From a virus: a DNA stretch of 25,451 nucleotides. The stretch lies in IMG/VR virus record IMGVR_UViG_3300031851_000161, positions 1 to 25,451 of that record. One strand, written 5' to 3'. Below the pieces are notes generated by a model. It saw only the letters and a program-made list of their open reading frames with translations, was not told the DNA's origin and searched no databases. Below, one piece after another: positions 1,825 through 11,005 of this stretch; position 1 is the first letter of the stretch, and the number at the start of each line of letters is the position of its first letter. A program made the position numbers and the translations under genes.

Positions 1825-2949
1825 TTATTTAAGTCCAGCCAATTTCTTTAACTGGATTATGTTATTGGCATCGCTACCCAATGATTCTGGTGTTGAACTA
1901 ACCATCTGTTCTTCACCTCTGTCACCAGTGTGTTCTGTTACTTTGCCTTCGTTTAACGATTGTTTTGCCTCTGATGAGACTTTTTCATTCAAAACTGCAG
2001 GTAAATATTTCTTAAATGCAGATTTTAAATTAGTTGTTTTTACTGTTTCAAGTAAATCAACCATAACATCACGCTTTTCTTTGCCTAGAGGCGATAAAAG
2101 ACCTTCCATGACCTCTTTACGGTCCATTCTGTCTTCTAACACTTTCTGTGCAGTTTCGGCGCTTGTAATGGCTTCTTCTTTTGCAGTAATAGTTTCTTCC
2201 AACTTCGCAATCTTAGTAGCCGATTCTTCTAATTTCTTAGTAATCTTAGCAACTTCAGTTCCTTCACTCAATTGTGAAGTCATGAATTCGCCTGCGAATG
2301 TTTCAAAAATTTTACGGCCAAATTCGTTTTCTTTAGCCGCTTGAATATCCTCTTTAAGAACATTCAATTCAGAACGTAAAGCCTTGTCGATAGTCTTTTC
2401 TACCAATTCTGCTGAACGTTTGATAAATGAATTCTTAGTTTTAGTAAGAATCTCTTTACCTTCTGCTACCATGCGTACTTTAGTTTCCACTAAATCACGT
2501 TTGTCGTCATGGAATTCTGCTAGTTCACGTGACAATTGCTTAACAACGAATTCTTTAGTTCTATCTAAATGTTCGTTAACTTTTGTACGGTCTGCTCTCA
2601 GTTCCTTGACTTCGTTTGCTAGTTGAGAAGTAATGAATTTTTCAAGGAGTTTTGCATGTTCAGAAATTGCTTTCTTATATGCAACACGTTCTGCGATTAG
2701 GGCTTCACGGTCTGTTTTAAACTCATCCATTTCAGTTTTAATTGCTGTTGAAAGCATGTTATCCATGGCTTCTACAATTACTGATTTGTCGTGTTCAAAC
2801 TTTTGTGCGAACTCTTCACGCAACTCGGCTGTTATCTCCTCTCTTGCTTCATTTATTTGTGCTTCCCAAGCCTCTGAAATTTGAGTTGAAACTTCTTCAC
2901 TCAAAACATCTGACTCAAGTAGCCCAGCAAGGATTTCATTTTTTGCCAT
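1825..2949 (-). CDS. gp22: Prohead core scaffolding protein gp22
   Basis: 374-residue, highly charged, almost entirely helical protein with long heptad-like stretches rich in Lys, Glu and Ala, for example residues 220-275 (EVAKITKKLEESATKIAKLE). Lack of any globular motif, the coiled-coil character and the position between the prohead protease and the major capsid gene identify it as the scaffold that fills the prohead and is degraded by gp21 in maturation. It is longer than T4 gp22 (269 aa), with a central extension (about residues 60-200) of coiled-coil type. A GAGAAGGAGAAG stretch before the ATG is a strong ribosome binding site. It is probably co-transcribed with gp21 (gap 20 nt) and gp23 (gap 23 nt). 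The family call rests mainly on synteny and composition. Confidence 0.88.
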   Translation of the reverse strand: MAKNEILAGLLESDVLSEEVSTQISEAWEAQINEAREEITAELREEFAQKFEHDKSVIVEAMDNMLSTAIKTEMDEFKTDREALIAERVAYKKAISEHAKLLEKFITSQLANEVKELRADRTKVNEHLDRTKEFVVKQLSRELAEFHDDKRDLVETKVRMVAEGKEILTKTKNSFIKRSAELVEKTIDKALRSELNVLKEDIQAAKENEFGRKIFETFAGEFMTSQLSEGTEVAKITKKLEESATKIAKLEETITAKEEAITSAETAQKVLEDRMDRKEVMEGLLSPLGKEKRDVMVDLLETVKTTNLKSAFKKYLPAVLNEKVSSEAKQSLNEGKVTEHTGDRGEEQMVSSTPESLGSDANNIIQLKKLAGLK

Positions 2950-6689: not shown

Positions 6690-8708
6690 CTAATTCTCAC
6701 CCAACTGATTTAAAAGTTGTTGAAGTGCGCCCAACGTCTTGTCTAGAGTTAATTTGAGTGAATCATCTAAGGCATTTCTATTATCAGGATTAAGCGCCCG
6801 AGTATTAAGCAGTGTTTGTACAACTGATTCAAACTCTAATTTTCGTGCTTCAATATCAGTTTTTGTGAGTTTGTCCTTATTATCTGTAAGTTGCTTAATC
6901 ATGGCAGCACTTTTGTTAGCAAATGCATCTACTGAATCTTGATTTTTTGTACGGTTGGTGGTGCCTGCCGATTGATTTGTGAACTCAGATGCAGTTATTA
7001 TATCGGCATTATCTGCATTGCCAAGTGATAATATTGTTCCCGAAACCTCAGCAACTTTCAACATCTGTCTTGCAAACCAACTTAGTGTTCTATCAGTTGT
7101 AGTTCCTACATTATTCATAGTATCGATTAAATTTCCACTTGCTTGTAATGAGTCTGCCGCTTGTTCGGCGAATTTTCTCTGTGTTTCTGTTAGAAGTTCC
7201 ATATTTTTAGTAAATCCAGGCATAACATCGTTCATCGCTCTCTCCATCGCATTTGCGGCCTGTAGTTGTGCGTCTCTGAATTTTACAACTGCGGAATCTT
7301 CTCTACCGCCAGCAGATATACCTTTTGAGATATCAGACATATTTTGTGCTAGTTCATTCATTTGTGCCAACTGAACTAAAATTCTTTCATCTGATATTGC
7401 TAATCCTCTTGAGGCTCCTCCACTATAACGTTCTAATTCACGTGAAACAAATTCAGGCATGCTTGTTGCCATAAAACTTTGAAATTGTGAATCACCGCCA
7501 TTTTGTAATTGTGCCGCGGCTTCATTAACAAATTTTATCATTTCCATTCCTAGTGGAGTCTGTGAAGTATCTTGAAATTGACTTGTCAACTGAAACATCT
7601 GGTCAGAACCTGCTCCCAATCTTGCGGCTAACAAGTCTGTTAGTGGATTATCAACACCACCCATCATTTGCATTGCATTTCTAACTGAATCTTGTGTTGC
7701 CTTATCAAGCGTTAATAACATACCCTTTTCAGCAAAGCCTAGGCTATCCTTCAACAAGTTCGCCGCGTCTTCCATTGAAATTTTTAATACATTTGAAGTT
7801 GCTTGAACATTAGACATGAAACTATCCATTCCATCTCTTAATTCTCGGTCAGACCTTCCTTGAAGTTGACCAGCGACACGTAACGTGTCTAAATAATTTC
7901 CTGCAATGCCGGCAACTTGACCGAATTCCATTGCAAATTCTTCCATTAGTCCACCTGGTCCCCTAGCCATACTATTAACAAAGTCTAACGTACTCTTTAC
8001 ACCCAACACGCCAACAGTTTTTGCAAAATCTTTAGTGAATTCTGCGGCCATACCAAAAGTAAATCCAGTATCACTAACTGTTTTTGCTACTGAAATGAAT
8101 CCGTCATTGAGAGAATCTAATCCACCTAATAAACCTGATGTACGAAGTTCTTCTGCAAAATCAAATCTCTGTTCGAATCCGACTTTTGTAGCCTCTTGAA
8201 CAGCCTCTGCCATTCCAAGAACTGAGGCTAATGCCGCCGTCATTTTTTCGTAGCCTCTTGCTTGTTTTTCACCTTCAAGTGTTTGTACTGCCTCTTCTTT
8301 ACTAAGACCGGCTTGCATCAGTTGTTTTAACTGCACTTCTGCTTTTCTTTCTTCTCTGGCATTCTTTACTATTTGGTCAGTCAGTCCATCTACTCCCATT
8401 ACGATACCTTGAAGACCTTTGAGATGTCTACTTAAAACGCCTTGAGTTTGAGTATTCTGGGCTTGTTCCTGCTTTTGGCCTCTAGTGACTTTGACTCCAT
8501 TCTGTCTAAGTTCGTCACCAACTTTCTTAAGTTCTTTTGAAGACAGAGACCCACCACCCTTTACTGCATTGAGTAATTGAATGATTGAAGCATTTTGTGT
8601 CGAAATTTGTTTTAATGTTCCTGCAATTTTCGATGCAGTAGCCTCAGTAGACCACTGGGCAATACTGCCACTTATGCCCGAAATAAAAACATCTTGTTCG
8701 TCTGCCAT
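6690..8708 (-). CDS. Probable tail tape-measure protein
   Basis: 672-residue, mainly helical protein rich in Ala, Gln, Met and Gly with hydrophobic segments, for example residues 155-170 (MTAALASVLGMAEAVQ) and 215-260. Nothing enzymatic is visible. In T4 the tape measure is gp29 (590 aa), an elongated protein inside the tail tube that sets tail length. Size and composition fit, and the divergently encoded neighbours resemble gp26/gp51, which act in the same hub/tape-measure assembly step; the frameshift between them recalls the tape-measure chaperones of other tailed phages. The start at 8708 has AGAGGG about 8 nt upstream, and a late promoter box lies at 8808-8815. A large uncharacterised structural protein is the alternative, as I see no diagnostic gp29 motif. 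Confidence 0.85.
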   Translation of the reverse strand: MADEQDVFISGISGSIAQWSTEATASKIAGTLKQISTQNASIIQLLNAVKGGGSLSSKELKKVGDELRQNGVKVTRGQKQEQAQNTQTQGVLSRHLKGLQGIVMGVDGLTDQIVKNAREERKAEVQLKQLMQAGLSKEEAVQTLEGEKQARGYEKMTAALASVLGMAEAVQEATKVGFEQRFDFAEELRTSGLLGGLDSLNDGFISVAKTVSDTGFTFGMAAEFTKDFAKTVGVLGVKSTLDFVNSMARGPGGLMEEFAMEFGQVAGIAGNYLDTLRVAGQLQGRSDRELRDGMDSFMSNVQATSNVLKISMEDAANLLKDSLGFAEKGMLLTLDKATQDSVRNAMQMMGGVDNPLTDLLAARLGAGSDQMFQLTSQFQDTSQTPLGMEMIKFVNEAAAQLQNGGDSQFQSFMATSMPEFVSRELERYSGGASRGLAISDERILVQLAQMNELAQNMSDISKGISAGGREDSAVVKFRDAQLQAANAMERAMNDVMPGFTKNMELLTETQRKFAEQAADSLQASGNLIDTMNNVGTTTDRTLSWFARQMLKVAEVSGTILSLGNADNADIITASEFTNQSAGTTNRTKNQDSVDAFANKSAAMIKQLTDNKDKLTKTDIEARKLEFESVVQTLLNTRALNPDNRNALDDSLKLTLDKTLGALQQLLNQLGEN

Positions 8709-8828: not shown

Positions 8829-9677
8829 ATGAACACCAATGAGAACCCATTATCAAAATATTTCCGTAAACCGGGAATATATGTACAAATTCCAACCGGT
8901 GGCAGATTTAATCCAGAAATAGAAAAAACTGTATTGGACGAGTTGCCTATACTTCCGATGACCGCAATTGATGAGATATCAATGCAGAATCCTGATGAAC
9001 TACTTAACGGCGAGGCACTCGTAAACCTCATCAAAAGTTGTGTTCCAGCGATTCCCAATCCAAGAAATCTATGCAATGTTGATGCTGAAATGATATTTCT
9101 TGCAATCAAATATGCAACATATGGCAAAGATGTAGAACACACGCACACTTGTTCTGAATGCAAAGAGAAGGCAGATTACAACATAGATATCAATCATATT
9201 CTTGAAAAGTTTCCAGATATTACTGAAATTCCAGCAATTGAACATGAAGACCTAAAGATATTTGTAACTCCGCCAAAATTAGACAGTCTAACGAGACTGG
9301 CTCTAATTGAAGTAGAACAAGCCCGTATATTAAACAAAATCAAAGAAACAGCAGAAGGCGTTGAAGGTGATGAGGTAGAAATGGCAAAACAATTTGCTAT
9401 TAGTTTCAGAAAAGTATCAAGACAGAACATAGACCTATTAATGAGTTCTATCGATAGAATCGAAACACCTACCGAAGCCATTATTGACAAAAATGTCATT
9501 ATGGAGTTTATGGAAAATGTTCCAACCAACATTGTTTCTAAAGTAAACGAGGCAGTGGGTGTTGCAACACCAAATTTAAAGGACATATCAACGTTCGAAT
9601 TTACTTGTGAATCATGTAGTCACAAAGAAAAAGTAACGTTTGAATTGAATCCTGTAAATTTTTCCTCGGCTGGTTAA
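8829..9677 (+). CDS. gp26: Baseplate hub assembly protein, gp26-like, zinc-ribbon cysteines
   Basis: 282-residue protein assigned to the T4 gp26 family, which acts in baseplate hub assembly and tape-measure loading. Support: the EMIFLAIKYATYGKDVE segment (residues 87-103), resembling the conserved gp26 core, and the position next to a gp51-like reading frame as in T4 (26, 51). Two CxxC pairs, Cys108/Cys111 and Cys260/Cys263, could form a zinc ribbon. It is longer than T4 gp26 (208 aa). The start has AAAGGA 8 nt upstream. The last codons contain an AAATTTT slippery site (9656-9662), so a fraction of ribosomes should make a longer fusion into the gp51-like frame. It is transcribed divergently from the tape-measure gene. 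Confidence 0.88.
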   Translation: MNTNENPLSKYFRKPGIYVQIPTGGRFNPEIEKTVLDELPILPMTAIDEISMQNPDELLNGEALVNLIKSCVPAIPNPRNLCNVDAEMIFLAIKYATYGKDVEHTHTCSECKEKADYNIDINHILEKFPDITEIPAIEHEDLKIFVTPPKLDSLTRLALIEVEQARILNKIKETAEGVEGDEVEMAKQFAISFRKVSRQNIDLLMSSIDRIETPTEAIIDKNVIMEFMENVPTNIVSKVNEAVGVATPNLKDISTFEFTCESCSHKEKVTFELNPVNFSSAG

Positions 9678-9688
9678 AGACTGCCAGC
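9656..9688 (+). promoter_or_regulatory. Programmed -1 ribosomal frameshift signal
   Basis: In the gp26-like frame the codons GTA AAT TTT TCC contain the heptamer A-AAT-TTT (9656-9662), which fits XXXYYYZ. After a spacer of 6 nt, GCTGG (9669-9673) and CCAGC (9684-9688) pair into a 5-bp GC-rich hairpin whose 10-nt loop contains the zero-frame stop TAA (9675-9677). The -1 frame is open from 9644 to 9895 and contains no ATG until about 9771, so its first 36 codons can only be read by frameshifting. Confidence 0.75.
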
Positions 9689-9895
9689 GACACTGAAGTA
9701 ACAGAGAGACAAGAGTCTTATAAGAAATCACTTGAATCTCTACACAAAAATCTGTACAAACTGTCTTGGTATATGCGAGGTGGCGTCAGTATATCTGAAA
9801 TCCATGATATGCCCGCTAATCATATAAAATATCTAAATGAGATAGTAAGTGACAACTTTGAGTTGAGCAAATCTGCTGGCGTACCTATTTTATAA
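9662..9895 (+). CDS. gp51: gp51-like baseplate hub assembly domain, read by -1 frameshift
   Basis: Reading frame at -1 to the gp26-like gene, giving 77 residues after the shift (FLGWLKTASDTEVTERQESY at the start, ending AGVPIL). It is helical and includes SLHKNLYKLSWYMRGGVSIS and IHDMPANHIKYLNEIV. Small size, position after gene 26 and this helical pattern suggest T4 gp51 (hub assembly factor). No ATG, GTG or TTG start lies upstream of residue 37 in this frame, so the product is most likely a 355-residue gp26-gp51 fusion made at low frequency, comparable to the G/GT tape-measure chaperones of lambda-like phages. An internal ATG near 9771 would give only about 41 residues. It was not in the ORF list because it lacks its own start. 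Confidence 0.75.
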   Translation, partial: FLGWLKTASDTEVTERQESYKKSLESLHKNLYKLSWYMRGGVSISEIHDMPANHIKYLNEIVSDNFELSKSAGVPIL

Positions 9896-9922: not shown

Positions 9923-9951
9923 TTGACATCTCTTTTTCATTATGTTAGTAT
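9923..9951 (+). promoter_or_regulatory. Sigma70-like promoter of the structured RNA
   Basis: TTGACA (9923-9928), 17-bp spacer, TGT and -10 TAGTAT (9946-9951). Transcription would start near 9957 and run into the folded RNA region and on to the endonuclease gene. GTTGAC (9922-9927) and GTCAAC (9953-9958) form an inverted repeat flanking the promoter. Confidence 0.65.
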
Positions 9952-9956
9952 GGTCA

Positions 9957-10440
9957 ACATAACTAATACAAATCGATTCAAAAACCATTTTTAATTCTAA
10001 TACAACTCCCCCAAAGGCTAATAATGATTCTAATAAAACAATACATAGTGGAACTGTTAGTCGGGTTGCCGACTCGGGATTGAGGGCGTATATTATACAT
10101 ACGTTCGGATAAGTTGGGTGAACTCCGACACTGCTTCTCGTAAACCACACAGACTGTTTGTAACATAAAACATTTGTTACTCTAAAGGTAATGAATGACT
10201 AGTATTTACCGTACAGAAATGTACACACCGCTGGTAGATTAAAAATACTACCAACTTTGATTAAGTTTTATTCTATGTGGATTAATCAAAGTGCCGTTGG
10301 GTCGAAAGACGCAATACTAAGTTAAGAGGGAATCGCCAACCGACCTCGCCGTAACTAGCGGCTAACTTAGACATGGAATCTGATGAACTTGACAAGTATC
10401 AGCGATTGCCCCATGGATGGGCAATTGTGTCTTCCAAACT
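9957..10440 (+). ncRNA. Candidate large structured non-coding RNA
   Basis: About 480 nt without a credible gene, preceded by a good promoter. Perfect complementary pairs include 10059-10064/10069-10074, 10112-10115/10121-10124, 10160-10165/10175-10180, 10211-10215/10220-10224 with a GAAA tetraloop, 10232-10237/10248-10253, 10255-10264/10282-10291 (10 bp), and 10301-10303/10308-10310 (second GAAA loop). 10317-10324/10363-10370 encloses 10326-10329/10344-10347 and 10348-10351/10359-10362, a three-way junction. 10374-10378/10432-10436 encloses a bulged hairpin 10380-10402 and 10405-10411/10419-10425, a second junction. Base composition is richer in G and C than the flanks. I recognise no known class (not tRNA, tmRNA, RNase P RNA, or a clear group I intron). 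The function is unknown; comparison with phage-borne ornate RNAs such as GOLLD and ROOL is worthwhile. Confidence 0.65.
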
Positions 10441-10491
10441 GACAAGCGAATAAACAATAAATAATATTTAAATGGAATAAACAAATATCAA

Positions 10492-10551
10492 GGAAATCTT
10501 CTTTGAGTGGAACGAAAAGAAATTTCCGAAGATATTAGGTCTTTAGACCTA
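10492..10551 (+). promoter_or_regulatory. Two hairpins in the leader of the endonuclease gene
   Basis: GGAAAT-c-TTCTTT (10492-10504) pairs with AAAGAAATTTCC (10516-10527), a 12-bp stem with one bulged C and an 11-nt loop. It is followed by TAGGTC-TTTA-GACCTA (10536-10551), a 6-bp stem ending 16 nt before the ATG at 10568. Neither has a T-run, so they are not classical terminators. Position suggests translational or RNA-processing control of the endonuclease, or the 3' domain of the upstream RNA. The interval 10441-10491 shows only an AATAAATA box (10456-10463), a weak late-promoter candidate. Confidence 0.5.
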
Positions 10552-10567
10552 TTAAAATGAGAACACC

Positions 10568-11005
10568 ATGAGTGAATGGACATATAAAAATAAAGTTGTA
10601 AATGAATTACCTGAGAATGTTGAGGGATTTGTATATCTTATTACGAATCTTACAAATAACAAAAAGTACGTAGGTAAGAAGTTAGCACGATTTAAGACTA
10701 CTAAACCACCTCTTAAAGGAAGAAAGAATAAAAGACGTGGTTATAAAGAAAGTGATTGGAGAACCTATTGGGGTTCTTCTGACCATTTAAATGCGGACGT
10801 AAAAAAATTAGGTCCCGATAAATTTTCACGTGAAATTCTACACTATTGCCCGAGTCGAGGCGCATTAAGTTACGTAGAAGCCAAAGAACAGTTTGACCGT
10901 AGAGTACTTGAAACAGATGAGTACTATAATGGTATTATCAATGTACGAGTGGGAAGTTCGAAAATTCTTACTGAGTATCTAAACAGCGTTAAGAAGAAAG
11001 TATAG
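10568..11005 (+). CDS. Free-standing GIY-YIG endonuclease, SegE-like
   Basis: 145-residue homing-type endonuclease. The GIY-YIG core is clear: FVYLITNLTNNKKYVGKK (residues 21-38) gives the two strand motifs in V-Y-L and Y-V-G form. A conserved ESDWRTYWGSS block (61-71), DKFSREIL (82-89) and a C-terminal EAKEQF...YYNGIINVRVG segment (103-127) follow; Arg64 and the Glu of EAKEQF are likely catalytic. The pattern is that of the SegE-type family common in T4-like marine phages, which cut phage DNA and spread themselves or adjacent DNA. No intron is evident, so it is free-standing like T4 seg genes. The ribosome binding site is weak (TGAGAA). The 3' end overlaps by 17 bp the convergent membrane-protein gene. 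Confidence 0.9.
   Translation: MSEWTYKNKVVNELPENVEGFVYLITNLTNNKKYVGKKLARFKTTKPPLKGRKNKRRGYKESDWRTYWGSSDHLNADVKKLGPDKFSREILHYCPSRGALSYVEAKEQFDRRVLETDEYYNGIINVRVGSSKILTEYLNSVKKKV

Follow-up and report, generated by a model that had tools for sequence, protein, structure and literature searches.

The window analysed here is a stretch of 25,451 nucleotides (25 kb) from the IMG/VR record of a marine T4-like virus. Pfam recognises T4-type head genes in it (Gp23, Gp20, and a gp21-type protease), and it also carries a gp26-like open reading frame (ORF), the main subject of this analysis (Table 1). This ORF matches PF12322 with an E value of 8.4e-17 (62 bits, above the curated cut-off of 24.5) and phrog_150 with an E value of 1.7e-19. 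Its protein shows two CxxC motifs, HTCSEC and FTCESC, in an alignment of 54 sequences, and this pair of motifs suggests a zinc ribbon. Several other features of the window may be recorded in their own right. Just downstream of the gp26-like gene lies an apparently non-coding structured RNA, conserved at 67-100% identity across about 70 marine relatives, with an MFE z of -3.6 and 71 consensus pairs, 29 of which show compensatory changes among 28 sequences; it had no Rfam match at the gathering threshold, no credible one at E<=5, and no credible counterpart in isolate phages, and it is possibly a new phage RNA family. A homing endonuclease gene lies directly 3' of this RNA. A 374-aa protein in the place of the T4 scaffold gene belongs with phrog_10922, a family of unknown function (E 6e-89), and its match to scaffold families is weak.

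Table 1. Coordinates of the features discussed, in window positions except where a locus is named.
Feature	Position	Strand	Remarks
gp26-like ORF, short product of 282 aa	8829-9677	+	PF12322 T4_baseplate
Slippery heptamer A AAU UUU, in zero-frame phase	9656-9662	+	A(9656) AAT(9657) TTT(9660)
6-nt spacer	9663-9668	+	Between heptamer and hairpin
Hairpin GCUGGU...GCCAGC, presumed frameshift stimulator	9669-9688	+	Arms 9669-9674/9683-9688
Zero-frame stop TAA	9675-9677	+	In hairpin loop
-1-frame extension, 77 codons + TAA, T-like tail	9662-9895	+	TAA at 9893-9895
672-aa ORF	6690-8708	-	Divergent from gp26-like gene
Structured RNA, apparently non-coding	9923-10567, core 10021-10377	+	Promoter-like TTGACA-17-TAGTAT at 9923-9951
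SegE-type GIY-YIG homing endonuclease gene	10568-11005	+	PF19835, E 2e-35
374-aa protein	1825-2949	-	Between prohead protease and major capsid genes
T-like tail in +1/-2 frame, SP-15-like phages	L119 4491-4811; L229 3638-3943; L228 3650-4015		

The final zero-frame codons of the gp26-like ORF read CCT GTA AAT TTT TCC TCG GCT GGT TAA, which puts A AAT TTT in the phase required of an X XXY YYZ site; the bare heptanucleotide AAATTTT occurs eight times on the plus strand of the window. The hairpin begins 6 nt past the heptamer, within the usual 5-9 nt distance of a downstream stimulator. The first-pass annotation had described such a signal—AAATTTT in phase, a 6-nt spacer, and a hairpin around the zero-frame stop—and we confirmed it at 9656-9688. 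After a -1 slip the first codon would be TTC at 9662, and the -1 frame then stays open for 77 codons, so that the predicted products are a 282-aa short form and a fusion of 278 + 77 = 355 aa, which lends sequence support to the earlier proposal of two such proteins made by the logic of lambda G/GT. The claim that the downstream frame lacks an early canonical start codon also held: its first ATG lies 111 nt (37 codons) past the slip, and neither GTG nor TTG precedes it (read in locus L027, which is identical to the window over this stretch). Ahead of the slip site, neither the window nor the jumbo phages checked have a Shine-Dalgarno-like stimulator; the same check found GGAGG in S-PM2 and Syn1.

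The hairpin is of ordinary energy, with an MFE of -10.4 kcal/mol that 19 of 200 shuffles equal (z -1.4). Across 36 aligned sequences, 99.1% of stem cells are paired, and covariation is weak because most of the stem columns are nearly invariant, and only one compensatory change was counted. In 52 sequences, the hairpin region is on average 2.2 SD stabler than synonymously recoded versions that keep the -1-frame peptide; on this comparison the hairpin appears to have been retained beyond the needs of that peptide. At five loci (L083, L086, L092, L102, and L105) the 3' arm is displaced by 4-5 nt with pairing retained, and at L083 the residues T-A-S are still encoded by changed codons. Folding found no stable hairpin at the Munch and XacN1 junctions.

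Searching IMG/VR with the -1 tail returned 123 relatives, of which 80 were kept, representing 52 distinct junctions. All 80 loci align from the first residue of the tail, in most cases ahead of any start codon. AAATTTT is in phase at every distinct junction (52/52), and the slip codons are AAT and TTT in all 52, compared with the use of AAT for 63% of Asn and TTT for 73% of Phe elsewhere in the gp26 genes. The zero-frame stop moves among these relatives, falling at +4, +13, +16, or +40, with the slip site unmoved. From +42 to +111 in the -1 frame, variability at the three codon positions is 0.30, 0.19, and 0.38; third positions are thus the most variable before the first ATG is reached, the pattern expected of a translated -1 protein.

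With tblastn, gp26-like genes were found in jumbo phages and cyanophages as well. Phosso, Atu_ph07, PA5oct, CBB, Munch, Vibrio 2.275.O, SCTP-2, and RaK2 have the heptamer T TTT TTC, which encodes a terminal FF motif, followed by a -1 extension of 70-80 codons; T TTT TTC is also present at the S-SSM5 junction, and RAS14, XacN1, and phiM12 carry T TTT TTT in phase. A further scan of 91 contigs (80 from cyanophages, 10 Rak2-like, and Atu_ph07) yielded 67 distinct junctions, and in each of them the homologous FF motif is encoded by an in-phase T TTT TTC (67/67). Conservation of the heptamer and its phase, which the first-pass annotation had named as a check, thus extends to 119 distinct junctions, 52 with AAATTTT and 67 with T TTT TTC; none of them has lost the slippery site with both frames kept, the outcome that the same annotation had named as a refutation. 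In the bodies of gp26 genes, 0.40% of codon positions (58/14,648) hold an in-phase heptamer of comparable kind, a frequency that, set against 52/52 and 67/67 junctions, rules out a chance origin of the slip site; sequencing error is ruled out by the agreement of over 100 contigs with one another and with several isolate genomes. The collections of relatives are made up of contigs, among which related sequences are not independent observations, and the strength of the case comes from the occurrence of different heptamers at one place in several deep lineages.

In S-PM2, Syn1, S-SSM5, and phiM12, the gp51 annotated in the record is the -1 extension itself. The lack of a start codon for this frame, on which the first-pass annotation had leaned, recurs in most marine relatives, which have none early, and fails in many cyanophages and rhizobial phages; an ATG stands just past the slip site in many cyanophages, Phosso, Atu_ph07, and phiM12, and some separate initiation could take place in such phages. 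The tail of the window aligns with its counterparts in jumbo phages, Rak2-like ones among them (hhalign 98.4%). Taken alone, it matched neither phrog_634 nor the T4 gp51 tail in the PHROG search and hhalign, and a tail profile of marine and jumbo sequences aligned with one of cyanophage and gp51 sequences at a score of 22, which is weak (maximum of 17 in 60 column shuffles); the link from the window tail to gp51 therefore depends on intermediates and on alignment of the whole fusion.

The direction of the shift is not uniform across the family. In SP-15, LIS04, and GXN1 the gp26-like gene is followed by a T-like tail in the +1 frame, equivalent to -2; this tail is unannotated in LIS04 and GXN1. 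All three have an NCC CGA near the zero-frame end, a candidate +1 shift site, and Mel-JY01 and an uncultured phage also seem to shift by +1/-2. A shift that is always -1 is thus ruled out, and the junction is more widely conserved than the direction; the -1 route put forward by the first-pass annotation stands for the window and for marine, cyanophage, and jumbo relatives, and gives way to +1 or -2 in SP-15-like phages. Shift direction varies among G/GT-type genes in general, and a review of tail frameshifting mentions a probable +1 case.

We compared these genes with T4 genes 26 and 51, which lie on opposite strands and are divergently oriented, so that T4 has no place after gene 26 answering to the "gp51 position" of the first-pass annotation. 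T4 gp26 and gp51 are both members of PF12322 (E 9e-64 and 4e-52), and a C-terminal stretch of gp51 matches phrog_634, to which the cyanophage -1 tail belongs. The cyanophage fusion aligns with T4-like gp51 over 231 columns (hhalign 98.3%), and the marine-plus-jumbo fusion aligns over 273 columns with a profile of cyanophage fusions plus T4-like gp51 (98.9%), with the FF junction in register. Because T4 gp51 consists of a whole PF12322 protein plus a tail of this kind, its counterpart is the fusion rather than the tail alone; a one-to-one match of the -1 tail to T4 gp51 is ruled out. The identification of the downstream frame as gp51 accordingly agrees with the usage of cyanophage annotators and not with T4, where gp26 would correspond to the short form and gp51 to the whole fusion.

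T4-type gp26 and gp51 also find each other by blastp, with E values down to 5e-13. A tree built from the shared domain puts the gp26 and the gp51 proteins of Straboviridae in one clade each; the two clades are sisters under midpoint rooting, and together they split from all frameshift-bearing genes (99/95). These sequence relationships show T4 gp26 and gp51 to be divergent paralogs; since the tree is rooted at its midpoint, the direction of change is one that we infer. T4 gp26 ends in KEFFELL, coded GAG TTC TTT GAG at the FF motif, without a slippery heptamer, and runs into gene 25. The simplest history would be a duplication in the T4 lineage, after which one copy kept the short form and the other had the tail fused in frame. 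We regard it as likely that frameshift-coded gp26/gp51 is ancestral for T4-type tails and that the Straboviridae exchanged the frameshift for a duplication, so that two independently expressed genes set the ratio of short to long chaperone and T4 is no exception to the G/GT rule.

Evidence on function comes from gene order, virion proteomics, and T4. The order in phiM12, SP-15, and LIS04 is tube, gp26-like gene, tail ORF, and a gene that either bears the name of tape measure or resembles one, with one small ORF between the last two in phiM12. The gene that follows cyanophage gp51 matches a PHROG labelled, among others, tail length tape measure (E 5e-21 and 6e-12), which is a weaker hint of the same arrangement. 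In the window, the gp26-like gene lies between the 672-aa ORF and the homing endonuclease, and no recognised tape measure adjoins it. The 672-aa ORF matched nothing in Pfam and nothing significantly among the PHROGs. Its positional equivalent in CBB, CBB_251, encodes a well-detected virion protein (29 peptides; PMC5259590), and the RaK2 gene at this place carries an annotation of similarity to a tape measure. Mass spectrometry detected 55 virion proteins in CBB without CBB_250 (taken to be FDG95_gp250) among them, an absence that is weak evidence (PMC5259590), and the PA5oct homologue does not bear the ESI-MS/MS tag of several of its neighbours, an absence to be read in the same way. T4 gp51 is needed for assembly and is not in the particle, and gp26 and gp51 are both listed as hub assembly chaperones (PMC3004832). 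Given this gene order, the failure to detect the homologues in virions, and the T4 chaperone listing, the gp26-like pair most likely works like G/GT.

Structural comparison neither ties the fold to lambda gpG nor separates it from gpG. No lambda gpG/gpT-like match was found in Pfam, in PDB sequences, or by Foldseek against the PDB, and the pair is therefore not classed as a gpG homologue, though it may yet be one. When the window short form (pLDDT 79) and a T4-like gp51 (pLDDT 81) were modelled with AlphaFold, Foldseek gave neither of them a convincing PDB neighbour, and VIA-align gave sub-domain matches only. Searching BFVD with the gp26-like model returned other phage hub proteins. In this Foldseek search, the model of window positions 8829-9674 (ma390bb8d5915) was linked to uncharacterised proteins of about 500 aa or longer from the large phages RSF1, RP12, and phiEaH2 (E about 1e-4 to 3e-5), a hint that tail chaperones with a gp26-like fold may exist there too.

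The slip site, its phase and conservation, the conservation of the tail before any start codon, the homology of the fusion to gp51, and the paralogy of gp26 and gp51 were all computed here. On this basis we consider it highly probable that the gp26-like gene uses a programmed -1 ribosomal frameshift to make a short and a rarer long tail assembly chaperone in the manner of G/GT, and that the T4 lineage makes them by duplication; that slippage actually occurs, its ratio, the chaperone function, and the binding partners are what we infer. The downstream hairpin would pause ribosomes on A AAU UUU, tRNA-Asn and tRNA-Phe would move back by one base, and translation would pass the gp26 stop. One gene would in this way give two proteins in a set ratio: the 282-aa short form, analogous to gpG, and the rarer 355-aa long form, analogous to gpGT and carrying a small helical tail. 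Both are probably temporary chaperones for the tape measure and the hub, with the helical tail probably recruiting the tube, and both would be gone before the virion is completed. In the T4 lineage the gene would have been duplicated, with gp26 as the short form and gp51 as the long form in an unbroken frame, making the frameshift unnecessary there.

Two other accounts of the junction can be weighed against programmed ribosomal frameshifting. The downstream frame might encode a separate small protein, begun by re-initiation or at an unusual start, with AAATTTT incidental. Cyanophage, rhizobial, and Rak2-like records do annotate a separate gene, and an ATG overlaps or closely follows the stop in many cyanophages as well as in Phosso and Atu_ph07. 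In the window and most marine relatives, however, the first ATG comes after a conserved stretch of protein; all 119 distinct junctions (119/119) have an in-phase heptamer, for which the background rate is 0.4% per codon; and T4 gp51 has both parts joined in one frame. We hold this account to be very unlikely. The frame might instead be changed by RNA polymerase slipping on the run of Ts, of which there are five to seven at these sites. The runs are short, however, the invariant marine element includes the AAA before the Ts, needed by tandem tRNA slippage only, and the hairpin is retained at the usual ribosomal spacing, leaving polymerase slippage very improbable.

A further question is what the products do. 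Even with a real frameshift, they could be structural subunits of the baseplate hub and not tape-measure chaperones, as database names would have it; genetic work on T4 has assigned gp26 to the hub (a point taken up in PMC3004832), and the CBB record calls gp250 a "structural protein". The homologue is nevertheless missing from the CBB virion peptides and untagged in PA5oct, gp51 is missing from T4 particles, and the tube, gene, and tape measure follow one another in phiM12, SP-15, and LIS04. A structural role is, in our judgement, unlikely.

Set beside known systems, the gene resembles lambda G/GT and its counterparts in P2, Mu, and PSA in that one gene gives a short product and a rarer frameshifted one with a small C-terminal tail, the slippery site lies just ahead of the stop, the products have not been detected in virions where data exist, and the order from tube to tape measure in phiM12, SP-15, and LIS04 is that of lambda V-G-T-H. 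It differs in belonging to PF12322, with proteins of about 200-280 aa and CxxC motifs, in not adjoining a recognised tape measure in the window, and in its sites, A AAU UUU and U UUU UUC here and G GGA AAG in lambda. T4 gp26 and gp51 share PF12322 with it, and gp51 consists of two parts like the fusion, but T4 has two divergent genes and no frameshift. The gp26/gp51 of Kyanoviridae cyanophages (phrog_150 and phrog_634) have the same layout, with the annotated gp51 in the -1 frame; their records, in contrast, give two separate genes without a frameshift, and the gp51 tail is shorter and distantly similar to that of the window. A 2016 review described tail frameshifting as widely conserved "except T4", and in the open-access literature searched we met with no paper reporting a frameshift for gp26/gp51. 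The mechanism itself is known; its presence in the gp26/gp51 family, and the explanation that this offers for the T4 exception, appear to be new. If the proposal is true, T4-type phages would have gp26 as their short and gp51 as their long tail chaperone, which gives the two proteins a testable job, and many cyanophage and jumbo-phage records would need re-annotation. T4 itself would be a natural case of gene duplication replacing a programmed frameshift.
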